DNA of 64,000 nucleotides from contig NZ_CP102288.1 in the NCBI RefSeq assembly GCF_025151535.1, positions 2,048,501 to 2,112,500 of the forward strand, in the 5' to 3' direction. The notes beneath the pieces were generated by a model. The model was not told where the DNA came from, did not search any database, and saw only the letters and a list, made by a program, of their open reading frames with translations. How positions within the stretch are numbered: position 1 is the stretch's first letter; every line of letters starts with the position of its first letter. The stretch is from Segatella copri DSM 18205 (lineage in GTDB: Bacteria; Bacteroidota; Bacteroidia; Bacteroidales; Bacteroidaceae). Of the stretch, positions 12,754 to 35,515 are shown one piece after another. The position numbers were made by a program, and so were the translations under genes.

Positions 12754-12771
12754 AGCAGATTAGAAGTATAT

Positions 12772-12823
12772 ATAATTAAGGTGGACAATGCTTTTTAAAA
12801 ATAGCAATGTCCACCTTAATTAT
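12772..12823 (+). terminator. Near-perfect palindrome after cvfB
   Basis: Two 21-nt arms (ataattaaggtggacaatgct and its complement with one mismatch) flank a 10-nt loop. It can act as the transcript end for lolD-cvfB, although the T-run is weak. Confidence 0.6.
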
Positions 12824-12852
12824 ATAGAAAGCAATAAGCTAATTGAATTATT

Positions 12853-13700: not shown

Positions 13701-13772
13701 GGACTTCTTATGCTTTTTGTCTTGCTTCCAAGCCTCCAGTTTACTGATGATATTTCGTCTAAACATACGCAT
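13701..13772 (-). pseudogene. N-terminal stub of an AAA ATPase gene
   Basis: On the minus strand, just after a TATCTTTG -7 box (complement of the segment around 13794-13801), an ATG opens about 24 codons, MRMFRRNIISKLEAWKQDKK and then HKKS. This is the usual opening of the DUF4143-type AAA ATPases (MxxFxRxIxxKLxxWKxxxxRKPL), but the Walker A motif that should follow is absent. The frame instead runs into the 3' flank of the DUF5053 cassette. It is best read as a gene broken right after its first codons. Confidence 0.45.
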
Positions 13773-13809
13773 TTGTTTCAAATCAGGGGCAAAGATACTA
13801 CTTTTTTGT
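13764..13809. repeat. Direct repeat, right copy, bracketing the DUF5053 cassette
   Basis: Partner of 12853-12898. Next to it the word gtaaatcag(c/g)ggcaa is repeated at about 13811-13826 and 13840-13857, so the area has been rearranged more than once. Confidence 0.55.
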
Positions 13810-13875
13810 CGTAAATCAGCGGCAATAGCGTTAAAGTTTGTTGTAAATCAGGGGCAACTAGGCATATCATTTAAA

Positions 13876-13907
13876 AAGGTGGCGCATCAAATGAGATGCG
13901 TCACCTT
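13876..13907 (-). terminator. Terminator that includes the stop codon of the defence operon
   Basis: On the minus strand the stem aaggtgacgcatc / gatgcgccacctt is followed by TTTTTAAA. The TGA stop of the HerA-like gene lies in the loop, so the operon's last codons form the 5' arm. Confidence 0.8.
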
Positions 13908-15470
13908 TATTTTCTTATACGGTTTACCACCCAAACCAAGGGCAGCCATCGTATGATCCTTGATAATCAACTCGCCTTTCTGCAAACCAGCTATCGCCGA
14001 CTTGATTTCCTGGAAGTCTTTACCCGACACACCAAAGAGATCCTTGATGATACTGTCAGAAATCGTCTGCTGCTTCATAATGAGCGGATACTGTGCATTG
14101 GCATAGAAATCGAAAAACTTACTCTTGTAACTATCCATGTTTTGAGTGGCAAAGATGATGCTCAATCCCTTGTTTCTACCCACTGCTATCAGATTGCGAA
14201 GCGGCTGATTATCGAAGTCCAGCATATAGTGAGCCTCATCGATAATCGTGAAGTGGCGAATCTGTACATAATCCTCATTAACCGCCTGCTTCGGCAACAG
14301 CTCATAGATATTATTGAGCTTAGAAATGATGAAATACACGATAGCCCTGGCTATCGGACCATCTTTCGGGAAAGCATCCATCTTCACGACAAAACACTCA
14401 TCTATCAGATTCGCCTTATCTTCCGATGCAAACAGATGATTGCGAATCAACTGCTTCAAAACCGAAGTGATGCTGTCATCCTTATCCGGATTCTGCATTC
14501 TTTGCTGATACTTCATCAGCATCAGCTCAAAAGTGATAGGCTTGCCTGCCGTCTGCTTATAAGCCTCAACAATAGCTTCACTCAGTCGATTACTCATGGA
14601 TGCGCTCACCGTTGCACGATCTACAGCGCAGAGTGCACCAGCCATCTCCGTGGAATAGAGATTGATTTCGTTGATGGTCCTGCCCGTAAAATCCTTGAAC
14701 GGCGTGAAAGGCAATGGCGCAACCACAGGATCGAGAATGCAACTCCTATCTACATCGAAGTGAACAAGCCAACTAGCATTCGACGGGTCTGAGAATTCAC
14801 CCTTATAATCGAACAAAAGGAAGTTGACGGGATAAGGCGTTTCCGTGGAGAGATTACGAAACTGCTGAATCAACACAGCCAGAAGATTGGTCTTACCTGA
14901 ACCCGTGGTACCAGCCACCAGAATCTGTGCATTCGATACCGAACGCCCGTTGATATTCAGTTTCGCTTCCATATCCTCTGCATACTCGCCTATCAGCAAC
15001 TCCAGGGCAGGAATGCCACTTCCGCCATGTCGCCTGTCGCTGGCAGCAAAGAGGAAAGCATTCAGATTCTCATCTTCCGAAAGATAAGCGATACCCCGAT
15101 AGATTTCCTTCGCCACGATGCGACCCACGATACTGGCATTCTGCCAATCCACCTCACAATCTCTATATCTCAACTTCAACAAAGCCGAAAAAAGCGACTT
15201 CTTATTGTCCTTGGTAAAGAAACTAGGCATGATGCGCTGAGAAGATTTCGACAATACGATTTCTCCCAAACCATCCACACTTCTCTTCTCCGTTAAGCTC
15301 AAACTGGCTATCAGGCAGATTCGCATCACCTTATTCAGGGTTAGCATGGCATCCCTCTCCCCTTCCACTTGCCGCGAAAGGTTCAAACGCTTCTCCAGTT
15401 TCTCCTTCAAAGGCATGATGGCTTCTACCATACCTTCTGCCTGTCGTATATTCTCTAATGCTACTTCCAT
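13887..15470 (-). CDS. HerA/FtsK-type ATPase with a possible DndE-like N-terminal region
   Basis: The protein has 527 residues. Residues ~20-105 (KEKLEKRLNL, MRICLIASLSLTEK, FSALLKLRY) have the helix order and spacing of DndE, a small protein that binds nicked DNA in phosphorothioation systems; this match is by eye and uncertain. Residues ~160-527 are a HerA/DUF87 ATPase: Walker A GTTGSGKT at 187-194, LLFDYKGEF after it, Walker B IIDEAH at 409-414, and FATQN as sensor. HerA proteins form rings that pump DNA, usually with a nuclease. It is the last gene of a five-gene minus-strand operon, 28 bp after the DndD-like gene, so its likely partners are the SMC ATPase and the Res-like nuclease. Confidence 0.85.
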   Translation of the reverse strand: MEVALENIRQAEGMVEAIMPLKEKLEKRLNLSRQVEGERDAMLTLNKVMRICLIASLSLTEKRSVDGLGEIVLSKSSQRIMPSFFTKDNKKSLFSALLKLRYRDCEVDWQNASIVGRIVAKEIYRGIAYLSEDENLNAFLFAASDRRHGGSGIPALELLIGEYAEDMEAKLNINGRSVSNAQILVAGTTGSGKTNLLAVLIQQFRNLSTETPYPVNFLLFDYKGEFSDPSNASWLVHFDVDRSCILDPVVAPLPFTPFKDFTGRTINEINLYSTEMAGALCAVDRATVSASMSNRLSEAIVEAYKQTAGKPITFELMLMKYQQRMQNPDKDDSITSVLKQLIRNHLFASEDKANLIDECFVVKMDAFPKDGPIARAIVYFIISKLNNIYELLPKQAVNEDYVQIRHFTIIDEAHYMLDFDNQPLRNLIAVGRNKGLSIIFATQNMDSYKSKFFDFYANAQYPLIMKQQTISDSIIKDLFGVSGKDFQEIKSAIAGLQKGELIIKDHTMAALGLGGKPYKKIKVTHLI

Positions 15471-15498
15471 ATTTATATTGCTCCGTCAATATGAAACA

Positions 15499-17499
15499 TT
15501 ATTCATTACACATTACTCCAAAGTATCCTTCCTCCACGTGGGTGCTCTGACTTTCCACATCTCTTACCAGTGTATAAGAACGGGAAAGGAATGGTTCCAG
15601 CTTCATGTAATCCTTATCCTTTCTGATTTCCGAAGTGGTGCAGAGCAGGATGGTTTGCTCGGCAAGTCCCGGGAAGTATTCTTCCATCAGCACATCACGG
15701 CTCTCCTCATCCAATACGCCCATCACCGTGTCTATCATCACAGGTGGATTATAGTCGCCCAGATTTCGAAGCACCTTCAGCAACACCTGGATAAAGATTT
15801 GCTTGGATGCCGCATTCAATTGGTTGAGCGAGATTTCATTTCCTGCCTTGTGATAGAGACGGATGGTGAAATTCTCCATACTGTCTGATAGCTCCACCTT
15901 GGCGATGCAGCCCTTGTAGGAAATGAGGAGTTTGTTGAGTTGCTCCTTCATATCCTCCTCAATCTTTTCCTTCTTGCGCTTGAGCAGAGTGTCGGCAACA
16001 TCCTCAAAGAAAGGCTTAAGTTTCACCAACATGTCATATTTTACATCTGGTTCCTGCTGTATCTGCACATCAAACTGGTGAATCTTCCGCTCCAGTTTCT
16101 CAATGCTCATCTTTCTGTCATCCGCCTCCTTCTTCAAGATTTCAAGTTCACGGCTAGCCTCCTCGTATGCCTTGATGATTTCGGTATTGCCGCTTACCAT
16201 GCTACGACGGAGCAGAGCTATCTGACTCTGCTGATTATCATAGTTCTCCAACCGCTTTTCCAAATCATAACGACTGTCATTAAGGGCGATAAACTCATTC
16301 ACAGCATTGGCACCCAGCAGATTCTTGAGCGCATCAAACTCGCTTTCATCCAGAAAAGCATAGTCATCCTTGCGCTGCAAAGCTTCCTGCTGACTCTTCA
16401 GGTAAGCCACCACATCGTCATCCTCCACGGAATCCGGACAGAGGCACTTTGATTTCAGATAACCAAGAATCTTGGTAGTTACCTCACGCATCTGCTCCAG
16501 GGAGAGCACCCCTTCACGTTCCTGCTTCAAGGCTTCTTTCTGTCGGATGATGTCATTCACCTCGTTTGTGATTCCCTGTGCAAGTTTCGGAAAGAACACG
16601 TTGATTTCCAAGGTCTCCACCACCTGCTTCAATTGGGCATTATATCGCTTTGACAACTCCTGCGTATCTTTCACGCTGGCCTCCAGATCCTGAATCTTTC
16701 GTGCAGTCTCGGCAGAATCCTTAGCACCTTCCTTGGCAGCATCATATTCAGCCTGAATGGAAACCAGATATTTGTACTTATCATCCTGGTGCTTGGTATT
16801 CTCCTCCTGCAAAGCCACCAGTTGGTTGCGCTGCTCGCAAAGACCATTATATTCCTCAGCCTCCTTTTGTGCCTCCAGTCTCCTTGCCGCCCATTCCTGC
16901 TGCTGATGCTCGGCAGCATTTTTCAATTGCAGATACTTGTTGAATCCCATCACATTCTGGATATTATCCTTGATGATTTGGGCAAAAACATTCTCCTTCA
17001 AGAGCTCGCTCGACTGCATAGCATCGAATAGGAAATACTTACTGAGTTCCTGTGGCAGGTTTGCCTTGATGATTTTATTCACCTGCTGCTCGTTGATGGC
17101 ACGCTGCTGCGGAGGCGTAGCCGTACCATAGGAGAAAAGCGTGCCATCCATATTGAGCAGCACATTCTCCACAGGCTTGTTGGCAGGATTAAGCTTATAA
17201 GTGCGACGCAGCAGATACTGCTGCTTGCGTCCGAGCACCATACCTTCGAAAGAGAGTTCAAGCACGATGGTAGGCTCCACCTTTCCCAAGGCACCATTGT
17301 TCAGGAGTTCCTGAAAATGCGCCTTGTTCTGAATTTTGAGTCCATATAGAGCCCCACAGATAGCCTCGAACAGCGTGGTCTTACCACCACCATTCATACC
17401 ACCTATCAGGATGATGGGCTGATCGGGGTTCACCGACAAATCCAAGTCAAGACTCAGATAAGTCTTATAGTTCTTGATTTTGATTCTTTTGATAATCAT
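15499..17499 (-). CDS. DndD-like SMC/Rad50-family ATPase
   Basis: The protein has 666 residues with the layout ATPase head, long coiled coil (~190-560), ATPase head. Walker A is GGMNGGGKTT at residues 33-42 after the motif IKNYKTY. The C-terminal head has VMIDTVMGVLDEESRD then YFPGLAEQTILLCTTSEI, which follows the DndD pattern (IDTpmGrLD...YFP...Q.ilLstdtEI) closely. The ABC signature is degenerate: NQLNAASKQIF where LSxGE/AGEKQ is expected. The hinge holds KCLCPDS instead of a canonical CPxC zinc hook. DndD works in DNA phosphorothioation and similar defence pathways. Here DndA, DndB and DndC are absent and the neighbours are type III-like restriction genes. Confidence 0.85.
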   Translation of the reverse strand: MIIKRIKIKNYKTYLSLDLDLSVNPDQPIILIGGMNGGGKTTLFEAICGALYGLKIQNKAHFQELLNNGALGKVEPTIVLELSFEGMVLGRKQQYLLRRTYKLNPANKPVENVLLNMDGTLFSYGTATPPQQRAINEQQVNKIIKANLPQELSKYFLFDAMQSSELLKENVFAQIIKDNIQNVMGFNKYLQLKNAAEHQQQEWAARRLEAQKEAEEYNGLCEQRNQLVALQEENTKHQDDKYKYLVSIQAEYDAAKEGAKDSAETARKIQDLEASVKDTQELSKRYNAQLKQVVETLEINVFFPKLAQGITNEVNDIIRQKEALKQEREGVLSLEQMREVTTKILGYLKSKCLCPDSVEDDDVVAYLKSQQEALQRKDDYAFLDESEFDALKNLLGANAVNEFIALNDSRYDLEKRLENYDNQQSQIALLRRSMVSGNTEIIKAYEEASRELEILKKEADDRKMSIEKLERKIHQFDVQIQQEPDVKYDMLVKLKPFFEDVADTLLKRKKEKIEEDMKEQLNKLLISYKGCIAKVELSDSMENFTIRLYHKAGNEISLNQLNAASKQIFIQVLLKVLRNLGDYNPPVMIDTVMGVLDEESRDVLMEEYFPGLAEQTILLCTTSEIRKDKDYMKLEPFLSRSYTLVRDVESQSTHVEEGYFGVMCNE

Positions 17500-17537
17500 A
17501 ATCTATTCTTCACTCTTCGTTCTTCATTCTTGGTTCT

Positions 17538-17753
17538 TTACTTGATCTGAGAAATCGCCTCGGCGATAATCTTCTCAGTATCCTCGTCATTCATTTCTAT
17601 CTTATCCACCTTGGCTGCATGATATTTGCGCAGGATTTCCTCGCTCATCCAGTCGAAGTCAATCTCATGCTTCTCGCATAGCGTCCTGATCAGGTCGAGG
17701 TCTTCCTTTCGGATGCCATAGTGCAAGAATTTTCCATCTAGTCCCTTTGCCAT
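17538..17753 (-). CDS. Small conserved-looking protein (71 aa) of the defence operon
   Basis: The 71-residue product (MAKGLDGKFLHYGIRKEDLD, later IDFDWMSEEILRKYH) is acidic and predicted to be helical. It sits between the Res-like and DndD-like genes with gaps of only 37 and 38 bp, so it is surely part of the same transcript. I do not recognise its family. A small helical protein in this position may be an adaptor or regulator of the helicase or the SMC ATPase; that is inference from position only. Confidence 0.75.
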   Translation of the reverse strand: MAKGLDGKFLHYGIRKEDLDLIRTLCEKHEIDFDWMSEEILRKYHAAKVDKIEMNDEDTEKIIAEAISQIK

Positions 17754-17790
17754 CGTTATTACACCTTATTATAAATGTAGCGTTTATGAC

Positions 17791-20145
17791 TTATTTATAT
17801 TCTTTCGGATAGAAGCTATCCCACTCCACAATGTCTGTAGTGTTTTCTATCTTCAGCGGACAATACTTCCAGTTGTTATTTCTCTCGATAATGATGCCAC
17901 CTTTCAGATGCTTGTCCTTGTTCTCTTCGCTCGCCATATAGTCGATGAGGGCATTATGCTTTTCTACGGCATCCACATCACTTCCAGCACTCTTGGTATC
18001 GAAGAGGAAGATCTGACCATTCTTCATACGAATCACGAAATCTACATAGAATAGGGCTTTGTGCCCCTCCTTGTTCTCGTAACTGATGGCATAATGTTGC
18101 CTGCCGGCATCACCATTTTTATACCACCAGTCAATATACTCCCTGTTGGCTTCCAGGAAAGCTTCGAAACGCTCTTCAGGCTTAGAGGCATTCTTCAATT
18201 CTACGAATGGCAAAAGAGCATGATCTCGTACCTCATCCTTGATGTGATGGCTTTCTTCCTTATAGAGTCGTTCCACTGGAACCTCCCAGTCATAAGTTTT
18301 ATAAAACTTTGCATTCTGCAGATTCTGCCGCTCCTCAAGTATTTTCTGATAACGATTCAAGGCACGGTCTATCAAATCTGCAAATACCTCCTTATTACCA
18401 TGATAAAGAATCACCTTCACGGCATCCGTCTCAAAGAGTTCAAACAAGTCTTCCATCAGTTCCTTCAAGGCAAAAGCCAATGTCGTGACACTCACCTTCT
18501 CAAACTTCGAACCAATACACTTGGCACAGAAAGCATTGAATGAATTGTTCAATTCCTGCATCGTGCGGACATATCTTGCCTTCTTATCCACATGAGTCTC
18601 ACCAGTCTCGCCCGTGATACTGACATCCTCTATCAAATCGATTCCAATGCTTCTTACCTTAAAGGTAATCTTATCCTCACATGCCTTTCTGTTTTTGGCA
18701 TAAATGCTCTCTGCAGCCTCAACATCTTCGGAATCTTCTTCATCCACATTGCCCTCCAAGTCATCTATCGTGAAAAGAGATAACTGGCGGTTCTTAACCA
18801 GAAGAATATCTTCAAAGACTTTTGCAAGTACCTTCTTGAAATCTGGTCCCAGTCGCTTACGTGCAATGGCAGGACGCTCACAATATTCAGAACGCAGCAC
18901 CACATTGCATAGATTCTCTCGACGAACAGCATGAATATTCGACATATAGTCCATATCATCTTGCACAATCTTGATGATGTCTTTGCTGAGATTGGTATAT
19001 ACATAGCCCCAATTCAGTCGGTCGTCCTCATAGAAATGCTGCTCAGGCATACGAAGAATGCGTCCCACGGTCTGAGCGGTGAAAGTAAAACTCTCTATCT
19101 TTCGGAAGATGAGGAGCACAGCGGCACGAGGGCAGTCCCATCCCAGAGCGATGGCCTGCTTGAAGAGTAACACCTCGGTCAGATTATCCGGTTTCTCTAT
19201 ACCATCCAGATTCTCCTTTTCGTTGCTGAGCCATATCGCCAACTTGCCATTGTCAACATTGATATTCTTGATGGTGTCCAGATATTGCATCACCTCTTCC
19301 TTGATACTTTCATCATCCTTATCCATCTTATCTTTATCATTAGGCAACTGAATAAGCAGCAGAGGATTGATATGAACACCTATCTTGCGATAAGCCTCAG
19401 CCAACTCTTCCCGCTTCTTGAACGCAAGGCTCACCAGATGCTGGTTCAAAGAGCCATTCGGATCCGTAAAGTTCAAGGCAGGATTCAATACCACACCCTG
19501 TTTAATCATACCTTCTCTAACAACAGCCTCTCTAGGTATTTTCACATCCAAATCGCCTTTTGTCTCAGGGGTTGCCGAGATACGGAGCTCAACTTTTGGA
19601 TTGATGTTCTTCAACACCTTCTCTGTCTTGTTGGCGAGTTTGCTGGCAAACATGTGCTCTTCGTCGATGATAACGACGATAGGAATATTCTGTTCTTCCT
19701 GGGTTCTGCGAGTAAGATCATAGAGCGAAGCACTCTGCTCCGTATCACGTATCATCACGGCATTATCCTTATTGATACTCTCCCAATTGACGAAAAGGAT
19801 TTCTCCCGGATGAATGTAGCCTTCGGCAGAATGGTCGAGGTCGTCATAGATGACCGGATGCAACTCCTGTCCTTCCGTAAAGAAGGATTTCATCTTAAAG
19901 TAGCTCTGCTCATGAAGCTTGTTGGGAGCAATCCAAATATACGCCAACTCTTTATAAGGTACATCCGTACGGTCTCTCAACTCTGCATTCAGTCGGAGCA
20001 ACATTTCTGATGCCATCACCGTCTTGCCGGCACCTGTTGGAGCCTTAAATACGAGTGTATGGCGCATACCTGAATAGGTAAGCAAATCAATGGTCTTATC
20101 TACCAATTCCTTGACTGCTTTCTGCTGATATTGTATCTGTTTCAT
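17791..20145 (-). CDS. Type III restriction (Res)-like helicase/nuclease
   Basis: The protein has 784 residues and shows superfamily 2 helicase motifs: Walker A APTGAGKT (35-42), IIDEEH as motif II, SATPE as motif III, and QTVGRILRMPE as motif VI. Near the C-terminus, FYVDFVIRMKNGQIFLFDTKS supplies a PD-(D/E)xK-like nuclease core (Asp ... Asp-x-Lys). It is shorter than classical Res subunits (about 900-1000). Its ATG overlaps the Mod stop codon (ATGA), the usual mod-res arrangement. It would translocate or switch on DNA and cut unmethylated sites, but here it is also linked to DndD-like and HerA-like ATPases, so the cutting logic may differ from EcoP1-type enzymes. Confidence 0.9.
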   Translation of the reverse strand: MKQIQYQQKAVKELVDKTIDLLTYSGMRHTLVFKAPTGAGKTVMASEMLLRLNAELRDRTDVPYKELAYIWIAPNKLHEQSYFKMKSFFTEGQELHPVIYDDLDHSAEGYIHPGEILFVNWESINKDNAVMIRDTEQSASLYDLTRRTQEEQNIPIVVIIDEEHMFASKLANKTEKVLKNINPKVELRISATPETKGDLDVKIPREAVVREGMIKQGVVLNPALNFTDPNGSLNQHLVSLAFKKREELAEAYRKIGVHINPLLLIQLPNDKDKMDKDDESIKEEVMQYLDTIKNINVDNGKLAIWLSNEKENLDGIEKPDNLTEVLLFKQAIALGWDCPRAAVLLIFRKIESFTFTAQTVGRILRMPEQHFYEDDRLNWGYVYTNLSKDIIKIVQDDMDYMSNIHAVRRENLCNVVLRSEYCERPAIARKRLGPDFKKVLAKVFEDILLVKNRQLSLFTIDDLEGNVDEEDSEDVEAAESIYAKNRKACEDKITFKVRSIGIDLIEDVSITGETGETHVDKKARYVRTMQELNNSFNAFCAKCIGSKFEKVSVTTLAFALKELMEDLFELFETDAVKVILYHGNKEVFADLIDRALNRYQKILEERQNLQNAKFYKTYDWEVPVERLYKEESHHIKDEVRDHALLPFVELKNASKPEERFEAFLEANREYIDWWYKNGDAGRQHYAISYENKEGHKALFYVDFVIRMKNGQIFLFDTKSAGSDVDAVEKHNALIDYMASEENKDKHLKGGIIIERNNNWKYCPLKIENTTDIVEWDSFYPKEYK

Positions 20146-22085
20146 TCGTCGCCTCCTTCCCTGTTATCTTTGATTTCACTTGCTGCCATCGTATATGTTT
20201 GATTTTGAAATAAATCCGATTCTTCGACTGTTCTCGCTTCTGAATCCGTTTCTTCTGCAACATCATCCAGGAGTTGCGCTTGACGCTTCTTTGGCAAAAC
20301 CCTGCGATAAGCATTCAATACGGCATCAGGCATGGCACAAAGCGAGACACAATCTGCCACATCCTCAAACTCATCATCATAAGCATAGCCGTTTGGCGAG
20401 AAGACATAGACCATGAGTTTGCCGTTCTCCTTACTTTCGGCATTCTTGAATTCCTCCTTCATCAACTCTACCAGGGCTTGAATAGCCTCAGCGCGATAAA
20501 TCACCAACATTCGTTTAGTTCCATCATTGCTCTCGAAATAGCGAGCAATCTTGTTGTTGATGTTCTTGCCAGCAAATGGCTTCTCGATATATGTATCGTT
20601 GTGGATGCAAAGCATATCTGTAGAGAGTGCCATCAAATTACGCAGATTCTTCGGACTCTTATCACGAGGCACAAACTTCGTCTTGTAATAACGAAGGTTG
20701 TTGCGGGTTAAGCCAGGAACCTGAGTATGTCCCTTAATAGTTGTATAACCATTAATAACTTTATAGATGCGTGGATGAGCAACTTCTTCACAAATGTTAT
20801 TCTCATTATTAGTAGCAAGAATACCTTTTCGATGTCCTCCATCACCATCATTCATTTTCATAATAGCGTCTAATGTTGTGGCACTACCTGCAAAGAAATC
20901 TAGCACAGTAATATCAGATGGCTTCTCTGTTATAGCAATCAAATATGCTATCAATTCCCATGGCTTACTAAATGGGAAATCAATTCCCATATTATTTAAA
21001 TATGTAGTGGCAGAAGAGTTTAAATAATCATAGATTACATCATCTGGTAGGTTATAATCAATATCACCATCAGTTTCTTCATCCTCATATTTTTTCTCAT
21101 AAACGTTCCAATCCGTATGATTTCCATATGAATCAATCAAAGGAGATTTTTTTGATTCAGAGAACATTATGCGATCTTTCTTTGCAAGATAAGATTGATA
21201 AGACCAACGCCAAACTTTATCTGCTCTTGTCGCAGGAGCTATATGAGCAGCATCTTCATTTTCTAAAGGCATAGTATGACCAGGAGGCAATATTAATGTG
21301 CCATCAGGAGCCTCTATATAATAACGTTGATTCTTACAACCTCTCAAAGGATCTAAAGAAGCTTGAAATAAAGAATGTGCTTTACGAAAGTTTCTTCCAT
21401 TTTCATCAACTAAAGGATATTCTTTCACTTGAAATTCCTTTGTATGAAATCCTTTTACCATTTCTGTATTTTTGCAATACACCAAGATATAATCTTTTGT
21501 AGGTCTAAAATAAGTACCTTGCTTTGAGCCAGATTTAGCAATTCGTGGTAAAAAGCCTAAGCATTGACGTGAAAATATTTCATCACAAAGAATTTTCAAT
21601 TGTGATACCTCATCATCTCCAATAGAGATAAAGATAACACCATCTTCTTTCAATAAAGATTTAGCTATCTTCAATCGCTTATTCATAAATGACAGCCACT
21701 TACTATTATAATAGGCATCTTCTTTATCTACATAAGCATCATTATATTTAAAATCCTTATTGCCAGTATTATAAGGTGGATCGATATAAATGACATCAAT
21801 CTTTCCTGCATGGGTATAGCTAAGGGCTGTAAGGGCTTCGAGGTTATCACCTTCAATAAGAATATGGTTTGGAGCCTCAGCGTCATCGCTGAGGATGGCA
21901 CGTTCAGGTACTTCAACAAGCACAGGCTGGTCATCAAGCATTCTTTGCTCTATATCCTCAGGTTTGTCTTCCCAAACCAAACCATACTTTTTCTTCGAAC
22001 GAAGAAGCTGAAACAACTCCGATTTCTCATCATTTGTAAGACCTTCCAGCTCATTTATCTTCTTTGCGAGTTCGTATTTGTTCAT
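20142..22085 (-). CDS. Type III-like DNA (adenine-N6) methyltransferase, Mod subunit
   Basis: The start MNKYELAKKINELEG at 22085 gives 647 residues; an alternative ATG at 22133 would add 16 residues of non-homologous look. Catalytic motif DPPYNTGN is at about 102-109 and the AdoMet motif DFFAGSATT comes much later, so this is a beta-class N6-adenine enzyme, as in type III Mod. The segment between them (about bases 20,950-21,770) is the target recognition region and is clearly more AT-rich than the ends, consistent with exchange by recombination. It is the first gene of the operon and would protect host DNA. C-terminal residues ~560-640 are charged and poorly conserved in look. Confidence 0.9.
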   Translation of the reverse strand: MNKYELAKKINELEGLTNDEKSELFQLLRSKKKYGLVWEDKPEDIEQRMLDDQPVLVEVPERAILSDDAEAPNHILIEGDNLEALTALSYTHAGKIDVIYIDPPYNTGNKDFKYNDAYVDKEDAYYNSKWLSFMNKRLKIAKSLLKEDGVIFISIGDDEVSQLKILCDEIFSRQCLGFLPRIAKSGSKQGTYFRPTKDYILVYCKNTEMVKGFHTKEFQVKEYPLVDENGRNFRKAHSLFQASLDPLRGCKNQRYYIEAPDGTLILPPGHTMPLENEDAAHIAPATRADKVWRWSYQSYLAKKDRIMFSESKKSPLIDSYGNHTDWNVYEKKYEDEETDGDIDYNLPDDVIYDYLNSSATTYLNNMGIDFPFSKPWELIAYLIAITEKPSDITVLDFFAGSATTLDAIMKMNDGDGGHRKGILATNNENNICEEVAHPRIYKVINGYTTIKGHTQVPGLTRNNLRYYKTKFVPRDKSPKNLRNLMALSTDMLCIHNDTYIEKPFAGKNINNKIARYFESNDGTKRMLVIYRAEAIQALVELMKEEFKNAESKENGKLMVYVFSPNGYAYDDEFEDVADCVSLCAMPDAVLNAYRRVLPKKRQAQLLDDVAEETDSEARTVEESDLFQNQTYTMAASEIKDNREGGDE

Positions 22086-22149
22086 AAAGATAGCTACATT
22101 ATTTTGTATGCTCACCCCTATTAGCAAATACATAATAATTTTATTCTGT

Positions 22150-22197: not shown

Positions 22198-22551
22198 ATC
22201 TTAAAAGAAATTGGCGCAGGGGTGTCATTACTCCTTTAACGTTCTTGCAAAACTGGAGGTTTAGGAGACCCGTGACTTAACAAGAACAAGAAGCAAGAGG
22301 ACACACCTACGCCAACATGGTATATATGTATGTAGCACAAGGCACACCCTTCCTATACGAAAGGGCGCACTTGTGCCGTGTATATATACACGTTATGTAG
22401 GCGTCCACTGCCATCTCTCTCCGATAAGTCACTTGAAGTTCCTAATTTCCAGTTTATCAGAAGCGAAACGTAGTAAACGTCTAATTCTAAAAGATATAGC
22501 CAATCCCCAGACTTTTCAGCCAGCATCCCTTTGCCAGCCATCTCGGAAATG
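22198..22551 (-). ncRNA. Candidate structured RNA (~350 nt) upstream of the defence operon
   Basis: A strong promoter (TAATTTTG on the minus strand at 22558-22565, with TTTG 20 nt upstream) points into this stretch, which has no credible gene. Hairpin 1: 22300-22313 pairs with 22213-22226 (13 of 14 positions), with an inner perfect 7-bp stem 22281-22287/22241-22247, and it ends in a T-rich tail (aatttctttt), like a terminator. Hairpin 2: 22395-22404 pairs with 22309-22318, enclosing 22335-22341/22370-22376 and more. The two hairpins compete for bases 22309-22313, so a switch is possible. It matches no RNA class I know. Confidence 0.5.
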
Positions 22552-22620
22552 ACGCTACAAAATTAACGAAAAGAATTGGAAATGCCAAAGAAAAGAACGA
22601 CTTTCTTTAGTTTAAGATAC
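22552..22620 (-). repeat. Duplicated promoter cassette, copy 1 (in front of the structured RNA)
   Basis: This 69-bp segment is identical to 23011-23079 except at two positions. Read on the minus strand it holds TTTG, a 20-nt spacer and TAATTTTG, a perfect Bacteroidota promoter. Confidence 0.85.
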
Positions 22621-22621
22621 A

Positions 22622-22654
22622 AAAAAGCCTTTCAGCATCTGAAATACTAAAAGG
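22622..22654 (-). terminator. Terminator after the 93-aa gene
   Basis: On the minus strand gccttttag / ctgaaaggc is followed by a run of T. It separates the 93-aa gene from the second promoter copy. Confidence 0.7.
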
Positions 22655-22706: not shown

Positions 22707-22988
22707 CTATTCCTCCTCTTCTCTAAGTCTTTTCAAAAATTCATCAGCATCCATCGGCTTAGTCCCATTCTTCTTATGAGCTTCCAGTTCATCAAGAGCA
22801 CGGTTGAGGCTTTCTGCCACATAGGCTTCCTGCTCTGCCTGGCTCATATAAGTTTCCTGGTAACTGTTTCCTGATTTGGAGATAGAACTGGCTAATTTAT
22901 CAGCATAGTCTTTGAGCTTGGCGACAAATTCGTCAAGCGTATATTGACCTGTAGAAGGTACTTGAAACTGAATATTAATCGTTTCCAT
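22707..22988 (-). CDS. Small acidic protein (93 aa), antitoxin-like, unassigned
   Basis: The 93-residue protein begins METINIQFQVPSTGQYTLDE, continues through a helical middle, and ends DADEFLKRLREEEE. A beta-strand start and an acidic helical end with xDEFLxxLRE resemble antitoxins that bind a RelE-type toxin with their C-terminus, but no toxin gene is next to it. It has its own promoter (copy 2 of the duplicated cassette) and its own terminator, and the same promoter also drives the structured RNA region in front of the restriction operon, so shared control with that system is possible. Confidence 0.7.
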   Translation of the reverse strand: METINIQFQVPSTGQYTLDEFVAKLKDYADKLASSISKSGNSYQETYMSQAEQEAYVAESLNRALDELEAHKKNGTKPMDADEFLKRLREEEE

Positions 22989-23010
22989 CTTATTCCTTTC
23001 TTTTAAATTA

Positions 23011-23079
23011 ACGCCACAAAATTAACGAAAAGATTTGGAAATGCCAAAGAAAAGAACGACTTTCTTTAGTTTAAGATAC
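23011..23079 (-). repeat. Duplicated promoter cassette, copy 2 (in front of the 93-aa gene)
   Basis: Partner of 22552-22620 (67 of 69 positions equal). The minus-strand -7 box is about 25-30 nt before the ATG of the 93-aa gene. Confidence 0.85.
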
Positions 23080-23246
23080 GAAAAACATTCAACAACAGAT
23101 TTTGAATGTAGCAAGCTACATGATACAAATAAAATATGTAATCTGCAAGATGCATCATTTTTTCCTTTTCAACCCAGCCTAATAAAACAAGGGAACGAAC
23201 TGCATCGCAACGCAGCCCGCTCCCTTATCTATACAGATGATTGAAT

Positions 23247-34514: not shown

Positions 34515-34545
34515 GTTTGTATTGTCAATGATTATTCGTATCTTT
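34515..34545 (+). promoter_or_regulatory. Promoter of the Abi_2 gene
   Basis: TTTG, a 19-nt spacer and TATCTTTG (34538-34545) form a perfect promoter. A TTG start codon inside the -7 box is thereby excluded, and the first usable start is the ATG at 34610, about 60 nt after the predicted transcription start. Confidence 0.75.
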
Positions 34546-34609
34546 GCAGCAACAGAATCCGCCACGCTTCCCATTAGAACAGCGAACCAGGGCGGGTCTT
34601 TTGCTTTTT

Positions 34610-35515
34610 ATGAGTACATTAAGATTATACACTAAGCAGGCTCTTTCTATTTCTGAACAAATAGAACTACTAAAAAGTAGAGGCTTAAATATTGCTGATT
34701 CATCCAAGACTGCAAAATTTCTTGGAGAGGTCAGTTATTTTCGTTTTGTTCAATACCTTCGTCCAATGGAGGCAGATAAAACTTCACATCAATTTAAGCC
34801 TAATAGTAGATTTGAAGATGCCGTAGCTCTCTACAACTTTGATATGGAGTTGAGAGACTTGATGTTCAAAGCTATCCAACGATTAGAGATAGCTTTGCGC
34901 ACAAAAATTATACAAGAGTTCTCATTGGAACATGGACCATTTTGGTTCTTTGATACAAGCCTTGCTGATGACGAACATAAGTTTATTGAGAATATGAACT
35001 CCATAGACAGAGAGCTTCAACGTAGTAAAGAGGACTTTATCAAGGAGCATAGGCGCAACTATGACAAGCCAATTTTCCCACCAGCATGGAAAACTCTTGA
35101 ACTGGCATCTTTCGGTACGCTTTCAAAACTCTATTACAATTTCTGTGACAAGAAATTGAAGAAGCGTGTAGCTCGTCAGTTCAATCTTCCTCAGCATGAG
35201 GTATTGGAAAGCTGGATGCGTAGCGTAACTGTCTTGAGAAACTGTTGCGCTCACCACTCACGCCTCTGGAACCGTTATCTTTCTACAGCTCCTCAAATGA
35301 GCGCTTCTTTACGTGGTGCATGGGTGAACATAGAAGGTGTAGATGCAAACAAAGTATATGCTATAGCCTGTTGTATTGCATATTGGCTTGATTCCATGGG
35401 ATACGGATTGGACTTCAAGAACAAGCTCAAATCCTTACTCGCTTCTTATTCACAGGTAGATCCGACCGCTATGGGTTTTCCTGAAAATTGGATTTCCGAG
35501 CCCCTATGGAGATAA
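34610..35515 (+). CDS. Abi_2 (AbiD/AbiF-type) HEPN protein, abortive infection
   Basis: The protein has 301 residues and starts MSTLRLYTKQALSISEQIEL, with FLGEVSYFRFVQYLRPME soon after, which is the Abi_2 opening. The middle has LYNFDMELRDLMFKAIQRLE and the C-terminal half holds RNCCAHHSRLWNR, the HEPN R-x4-6-H catalytic motif of RNase toxins. Such proteins stop phage by degrading RNA, and AbiF-type members are known to be held in check by a neighbouring small RNA. The gene stands alone, with its own promoter, between near-identical 75-bp repeats, so it looks like a mobile cargo. Substrate and trigger are unknown. Confidence 0.88.
   Translation: MSTLRLYTKQALSISEQIELLKSRGLNIADSSKTAKFLGEVSYFRFVQYLRPMEADKTSHQFKPNSRFEDAVALYNFDMELRDLMFKAIQRLEIALRTKIIQEFSLEHGPFWFFDTSLADDEHKFIENMNSIDRELQRSKEDFIKEHRRNYDKPIFPPAWKTLELASFGTLSKLYYNFCDKKLKKRVARQFNLPQHEVLESWMRSVTVLRNCCAHHSRLWNRYLSTAPQMSASLRGAWVNIEGVDANKVYAIACCIAYWLDSMGYGLDFKNKLKSLLASYSQVDPTAMGFPENWISEPLWR

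Follow-up and report, generated by a model that had tools for sequence, protein, structure and literature searches.

A type III-like Mod-Res pair and an Sp-DndD-DndE:HerA trio suggest a two-module restriction system in Segatella copri

Two described systems come closest to the operon analyzed here. Fusions of DndE with HerA that adjoin a DndD-related ATPase have been reported in a subset of Dnd phosphorothioation systems with 'clade-3' HerA/FtsK proteins (Rakesh et al. 2024, PMC10853773); the available part of that article also describes the small protein, together with cytosine methylases with CxC cores, and suggests that DndE proteins contribute to target choice through their variable DNA-binding face. 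For PbeABCD, the accessible text of PMC6459918 gives pbeB, pbeC and pbeD as each essential and pbeA as only partly so, with viral DNA left uncut. The mechanism of DndD and DndE is unsettled and has mostly been studied in systems where both also install the sulfur mark. Here we examine a 64,000-nucleotide (nt) stretch of Segatella copri DSM 18205 (contig NZ_CP102288.1, positions 2,048,501 to 2,112,500; hereafter the window), in which five minus-strand genes encode, in reading order, an adenine methyltransferase (Mod), a putative helicase-nuclease (Res), a small protein (Sp), a DndD-like ATPase and a DndE:HerA fusion (Table 1). We consider it probable that these genes form a restriction system that is marked by adenine methylation and composed of two exchangeable modules in the PbeABCD gene order. 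What is new is the modularity.

The operon is compact and its arrangement is conserved. An earlier note, written from the letters of the window, had described five minus-strand genes separated by less than 40 bp or overlapping, and this is confirmed: Mod and Res overlap by 4 nt, and the Res-Sp, Sp-DndD and DndD-HerA gaps measure 37, 38 and 28 nt. A genome-contig scan returned 185 relatives of the HerA protein, the best 80 of which were kept as loci (numbered with L). All five genes occur in 62 of the 80, in identical order and strand every time (62/62), the conserved synteny that the earlier note had named as support for its proposal.

Covariation across the family separates these genes into two units. 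The test drew on the 52 rows, window included, in which all five proteins exceed the length limits; removal of L031 and L094 as near-copies left 50 rows and 1225 pairs. The Mod C-terminus follows Res when DndD is held constant (partial r = 0.64, a value reached in 0 of 1000 permutations), and Sp follows DndD given Res (partial r = 0.80, 0/1000 permutations); the value for Sp and Res given DndD is 0.10 (47/1000 permutations). Among the 79 pairs whose DndD proteins are at least 85% identical, Res falls below 70% in 49, and the Mod C-terminus is at most 60% identical where Res is below 70% and at least 69% otherwise. No pair among the compared loci combines Res of at least 85% with DndD below 80%; at that level, the comparison thus gave no instance of a constant Mod-Res with an exchanged trio.

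Comparison of DNA edges in seven hand-chosen pairs, mostly discordant ones, places many of the breaks close to Sp. In four of the seven, the similar stretch spanning Sp-DndD-HerA has its start no more than ~20 nt from the Sp open reading frame (ORF). L080/L048 and L080/L066 have a common 3.8-kb block, 89% identical, running from 9 nt inside the Sp ORF to where HerA ends; in Mod and Res, these pairs match in short pieces only. In L060/L048 and L052/L060, the block likewise starts within ~20 nt of the Sp ORF. L054/L064 are alike along their whole length, apart from the recognition region and an insertion of ~680 nt at the Res/Sp junction. Taken together, these sequence comparisons suggest that Mod-Res and Sp-DndD-DndE:HerA are two exchangeable modules with a DNA break often near Res/Sp, and that target choice belongs to the methylase and the trio is an exchangeable module. 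Other results fit such a clean division less well. A weak association of the Mod C-terminus with DndD persists (0.17, 4/1000 permutations), and the pairs are not independent, the 79 of them representing 8 clusters, one of 14 loci. The L025/L034 block starts ~360 nt upstream, inside Res, and that of L016/L080 runs from Mod through Res and Sp into the beginning of DndD, followed by weaker pieces.

Mod has the features of a type III beta-class N6-adenine methyltransferase. It matches PF01555 (1.7e-28) and PADLOC MTase_III (1.7e-73), and in the PDB Mbo45V (2.5e-37) and EcoP15I Mod (1.4e-27). Its motifs follow the FxGxG order with a variable recognition region, and DPPY is present in 57/57 rows of the family. 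Comparison with the closest record of the genome-contig scan, S. copri iA622 (L015), delimits the variable region: the DNA is 94.9% identical across 13707-20902, does not align at 20903-21572 and is 81.5% identical beyond. The corresponding protein segments are 20% identical, against 98-99% for Res, DndD and HerA, and the two DndE:HerA proteins are 98% identical although the recognition regions differ. Over the 79 pairs that reach 85% identity in DndD, the recognition regions have a median identity of 25% and exceed 50% in one pair; DndE shows no covariation with them given DndD (r = 0.01). In L049/L064, the Mod recognition regions are 89% identical and Res 65%, a likeness indicating that recognition regions move between loci. 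Separately, tandem Mod-like ORFs stand upstream of Res in L088:1610-5449 (two) and L071:1587-5384 (three, perhaps split), possibly as spare specificities.

Res is the less typical member of the pair. It matches PF04851 (1.1e-15) and PADLOC REase_III (3.9e-18, residues 156-395 only). The helicase motifs, D702 and D716xK718 are conserved across the family, in keeping with the Res-like helicase with a PD-(D/E)xK motif proposed by the earlier note; by motif, it is a predicted superfamily 2 (SF2) helicase with a PD-(D/E)xK nuclease.

Sp matches PF20306 (1.4e-06; 28.8 bits, cut-off 27.2), and among the best 120 of its 280 relatives one is named 'DNA modification system-associated small protein'. As a separate observation, a DndC-like protein at L141:7256-8632 carries an Sp-DndD-like C-terminal segment (residues 394-437), whose scores fell on either side of the Pfam cut-off: 24.6 bits (below) in one scan and 28.7 bits (above) in another. 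Because that protein ends in an Sp-like segment, Sp may derive from a DndC tail that became detached.

The fourth gene encodes a DndD-like ATPase that matches the PADLOC DndD (2e-65) and PbeC (9.4e-59) models and scores 188.5 bits against the DndD equivalog TIGR03185, below the cut-off of 245.85. The serine and glycine of the ATP-binding cassette (ABC) signature normally contact ATP across the dimer. In this family the signature is LN[AT]AS[KT]Q in 71/71 rows, the one departure among otherwise conserved catalytic motifs, and two scattered relatives (L137, L138) have it likewise; the DndD proteins of other systems in L139-L142 keep LSxGE. The Walker B stretch reads IDTVMG, and [IV]DTPL[GA] in L139-L142. 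ATP hydrolysis by DndD may therefore be altered, and the altered signature makes 'motor' an uncertain label for this protein. A zinc hook in DndD (SKCLCPD in the window) was considered and rejected, CxC being present in 2 of the 71 family rows, the window among them.

The last gene joins two domains. Its HerA part matches DUF87/DndH-HerA models and, in the PDB, DptH, and the HerA catalytic motifs are conserved across the family. The full-length profile matches 120 DndE-HerA proteins with an E value of 1.7e-24. The N-terminal domain has the DndE fold, so that the HerA-type ATPase with a DndE-like start described by the earlier note is indeed one fused protein; the fusion beside a DndD-like ATPase was already published in 2024 and hence is not new. 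A profile of the N-terminal domain found no match among DndE alignments, and the DndE assignment consequently rests on fold. A full-length AlphaFold model (pLDDT, predicted local distance difference test, 64.3; 14 sequences) was poor and was left out of the fold search. Profiles, motifs, PDB matches and the DndE fold thus uphold the earlier proposal of a type III-like Mod-Res pair joined to DndD- and HerA/DndE-type proteins.

Table 1 Genes and regions of the operon (window coordinates) and genes inserted in related loci
Feature	Position or loci	Strand	Basis
Mod, type III-like beta-class N6-adenine methyltransferase, 663 amino acids (aa) (alternative ATG 22085)	20142..22133	-	profile and PDB matches
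Mod target-recognition region, ~residues 188-410, swapped	20903..21572	-	no DNA alignment to L015 here
Res, SF2 helicase with C-terminal PD-(D/E)xK-type motif, 784 aa	17791..20145	-	profiles and motifs
Sp, 71-aa Sp-DndD small protein	17538..17753	-	PF20306
DndD-like coiled-coil ABC ATPase, 666 aa, altered signature LNAASKQ	15499..17499	-	PADLOC DndD/PbeC
DndE:HerA fusion, 527 aa: DndE-fold domain ~1-140, HerA/FtsK-type ATPase ~150-527	13887..15470	-	DUF87/DndH-HerA models, fold
YhcG nuclease, inserted	L018, L084		
RhuM, inserted	L034, L086; L036, L038		L036, L038 by at least 95% identity to L034
Abi_2, inserted	L041, L063; L045, L075		L045, L075 by 67% identity to L041, L063
Schlafen-AlbA, inserted	L061		
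SocA-Panacea, inserted	L075		

Eleven of the 62 five-gene loci have an ORF cut at a contig edge (six, Mod) or split (five, Res or DndD). Among the remaining 18 of the 80, 16 reach the contig end inside the operon; the others are L033, where 10 kb of other sequence is followed by only the 3' end of DndD and by HerA, and L050, with 578 nt before Sp and no Res match there. Most of the 80 loci are labelled Bacteroidota. L082 is labelled Ignavibacteriales and L078 Opitutales, and single metagenome-assembled genomes labelled Alphaproteobacteria (L083) and Clostridium (L067) may be mis-binned. Protein searches retained the best 120 of 1324, 280 and 550 matches, and two of the three scored only the 7996 candidates sharing most words. 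Within the family, any match was found in 8 of 151 genomes. Among viral contigs, 141 stretches matched a pattern and none was confirmed as a relative. In some loci extra genes occupy the Mod/Res or Res/Sp junction (Table 1). Sp-DndD gaps of at least 300 nt occur in L036, L041, L047, L053, L073 and L084, some of them reflecting split DndD ORFs, and the DndD-HerA gap exceeds 300 nt in L053 (402 nt, no ORF of at least 50 aa found) and L075 (split DndD). In the window itself, apart from the operon, an Abi_2 abortive-infection family protein is encoded at 34544-35515 (PF07751, 3.4e-55); the same family sits inside the operon in L041 and L063.

Parts of the operon also occur separately. The 3.3-Mb host genome carries a second, distantly related Mod-Res pair (L136, C1 ~1048000-1053000) whose Res is 33% identical to that of the window, with no ATPases adjoining. 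DndE-HerA fusions with PF08870 stand beside DndC/DndD in L142 and with other partners in L139 and L140. Two genomes of one genus, G431 (contigs C44, C61, C57) and G423 (C78, C72, C34), each hold Sp, DndD and DndE:HerA on three separate contigs (loci L137, L138, L143, L169, L170, L172 and L173). A search lacking a positive control found no Res match in either genome; a Mod match (34% identity) is present in only one of them, and G431 also carries the DndC system L142. This scattered trio is possibly a domesticated form.

The operon is flanked by a plus-strand pair (an ABC transporter ATPase and an S1/CvfB-like protein) on one side and by ORFs that, judged by eye, are oxidoreductase-like on the other. 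Comparison with eight stretches from other genomes of the genus established neither a clean empty site nor the left border, as only the right-hand flank aligned (from ~23254). A 93-aa ORF (22707-22988) immediately upstream of the operon is bracketed by an 80-nt direct repeat (94%; 22547-22626 and 23006-23085), and this region aligns to L015 in pieces only. A 28-nt inverted repeat (93%, 2 nt between arms; 12769-12826), perhaps a terminator, lies beyond the S1/CvfB-like gene.

In the two-module restriction system that we favor, the recognition region of Mod would set the site and Mod would mark host DNA as N6-methyladenine. The Mod C-terminus would bind the helicase-nuclease Res, making Mod-Res a site-specific pair, while DndD and DndE would clamp DNA, the HerA ring would move it, and Sp would link the trio to its partner enzyme. 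On unmarked DNA, the trio would be recruited by Mod-Res at an unmodified site, or would itself drive this pair, and would block or process the invader and let Res cut. More tentatively, and with less than even confidence, Sp-DndD-DndE:HerA could be a portable interference module that lacks site specificity of its own and is wired to different self-marks (phosphorothioation via DndC in one branch; N6-methyladenine via Mod-Res here), with DndD in the present branch, given its changed signature, as an ATP-gated clamp instead of an ABC ATPase that hydrolyzes normally, HerA as the motor and Sp, seen as a DndC C-terminal segment in L141, as the plug to the partner enzyme. Several points weigh against a restriction system of this kind. 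The match of Res to the type III Res profile is only partial, and the Res-family profile retrieved no type III Res from the PDB, its 13 sequences all being eukaryotic-type RNA/DNA helicases by name. The DndE domain was missed by profile comparison alone (150-residue slices, window family against 120 DndE-HerA proteins, E 0.29). ATP hydrolysis by DndD is uncertain given the changed signature, nuclease action cannot be assumed because Pbe is reported, in the text available of PMC6459918, not to cut viral DNA, and a defense role is a prediction from the genes.

The readings diverge chiefly on whether Res cuts or replication is blocked by the trio. The trio could sense unmarked DNA and halt replication in the manner of Pbe, with Res mainly a helicase and Mod replacing the phosphorothioation mark. 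This possibility, which we regard as doubtful though worth serious attention, draws on the PbeA-B-C-D gene order, on the need for pbeB-D and only partly for pbeA with viral DNA intact (PMC6459918, as far as accessible), on the PbeC match and on covariation of Sp-DndD-HerA as its own unit. The retention of D702 and D716-x-K718 argues instead for a working nuclease and favors cutting by Res, and the CxC hook is not conserved. It is unlikely that Mod-Res performs ordinary type III restriction while the trio, a separate defense or DNA-maintenance unit, merely travels along. Inheritance of the trio is largely separate from that of Mod-Res, the trio persists on separate contigs with no Res match in G431 and G423, and the stretches fetched as L132-L136 hold relatives of the window Res with Mod and without Sp, DndD or HerA. 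The earlier note had named Mod-Res pairs lacking both ATPases in most genomes as a point against its proposal; these distant relatives do lack them, but the 63 Res rows, counting that of the window, group in a single clade separate from the seven Res compared from other, trio-less loci (Shimodaira-Hasegawa-like approximate likelihood ratio test 98; quick tree, long branches). The presence of the whole set in 62 of 80 loci also speaks against a chance neighborhood.

That the operon is a methylation-based regulator of genes or chromosome structure, and not a defense system, appears improbable: the trio is retained yet scattered in two genomes and looks domesticated there, whereas patchy spread (near-full-length in 2/151 genomes, own included), swapped recognition regions and the inserted Abi_2, YhcG and Schlafen-AlbA genes fit defense. 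Very little weight can be given to a canonical Dnd phosphorothioate system whose modification genes lie elsewhere in the genome. DndD- and DndE-type proteins are present, but DndD scores below the DndD equivalog cut-off and DndC is absent among the five genes. The DndC model found no match in the window genome, in a search for which no true DndC served as control because its scores in 5 of 14 control genomes all fell below the cut-off; nor did any appear in the 80 loci (up to 10 kb each side; as a control, the DndC proteins of L141 and L142 find each other). The earlier expectation of synteny without DndABC thus stands for DndC, DndA and DndB not having been searched for.

If the two-module restriction system is correct, its value lies in separating functions. 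Marking and site choice seem to reside wholly in Mod, so the DndD-DndE:HerA machine would be testable apart from modification. The natural recognition-region and trio swaps provide ready-made test pairs, and they predict that site specificity follows Mod, not DndE, in contrast with the target-choice role for DndE suggested in the available part of PMC10853773.

The earlier note could not tell whether the operon overlaps a named system. It does so in its PbeABCD gene order, its published DndE-HerA fusion and its small protein of the Sp-DndD family, whereas the pairing with type III Mod-Res was not found described: the parts of PMC10853773, PMC6459918, PMC12839542 and PMC12707154 available to us nowhere describe DndD and DndE:HerA together with Mod-Res of type III. 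Krishnan et al. 2020 (NAR 48:10045) lay outside this scope and would be the likeliest place of an earlier publication of the gene set; priority is unsettled. As in the clade-3 DndE-HerA systems, judged from the accessible text of PMC10853773, DndE and HerA form one polypeptide adjoining a DndD-related ATPase. Those are Dnd phosphorothioation systems, whereas the partner in the window is a type III-like adenine Mod-Res with no DndC found; the methylases named there with such cores are cytosine methylases with CxC ATPases, and that of the window is an adenine methylase. With PbeABCD, as described in the portion available, the window shares the order of helicase-nuclease, small protein, coiled-coil ABC ATPase and DndE, and a separate self-mark. 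It differs in adding HerA to DndE, in lacking a conserved CxC hook, in having a PD-(D/E)xK-type Res where PbeA is an HKD-helicase, and in having a methylase where Pbe has phosphorothioation genes. Res, Sp and HerA matched no Pbe model in the PADLOC scan, in which the presence of PbeA, PbeB and PbeD models in the library was not seen. The HerA domain has its nearest counterpart in DndH/DptH of the DndFGH/DptFGH systems, but the window protein has 527 aa against 1389-1715 model positions and aligns to the DndH models at their HerA end alone; among the rows shown for the seven proteins scanned at the locus, not the rest of the genome, DndF and DndG had no match. With type III restriction-modification systems such as EcoP15I and Mbo45V, the window shares a beta-class Mod, a variable recognition region, a helicase-nuclease Res and Mod-Res covariation, and it departs from them in its short (784 aa), divergent Res and its three further conserved genes.

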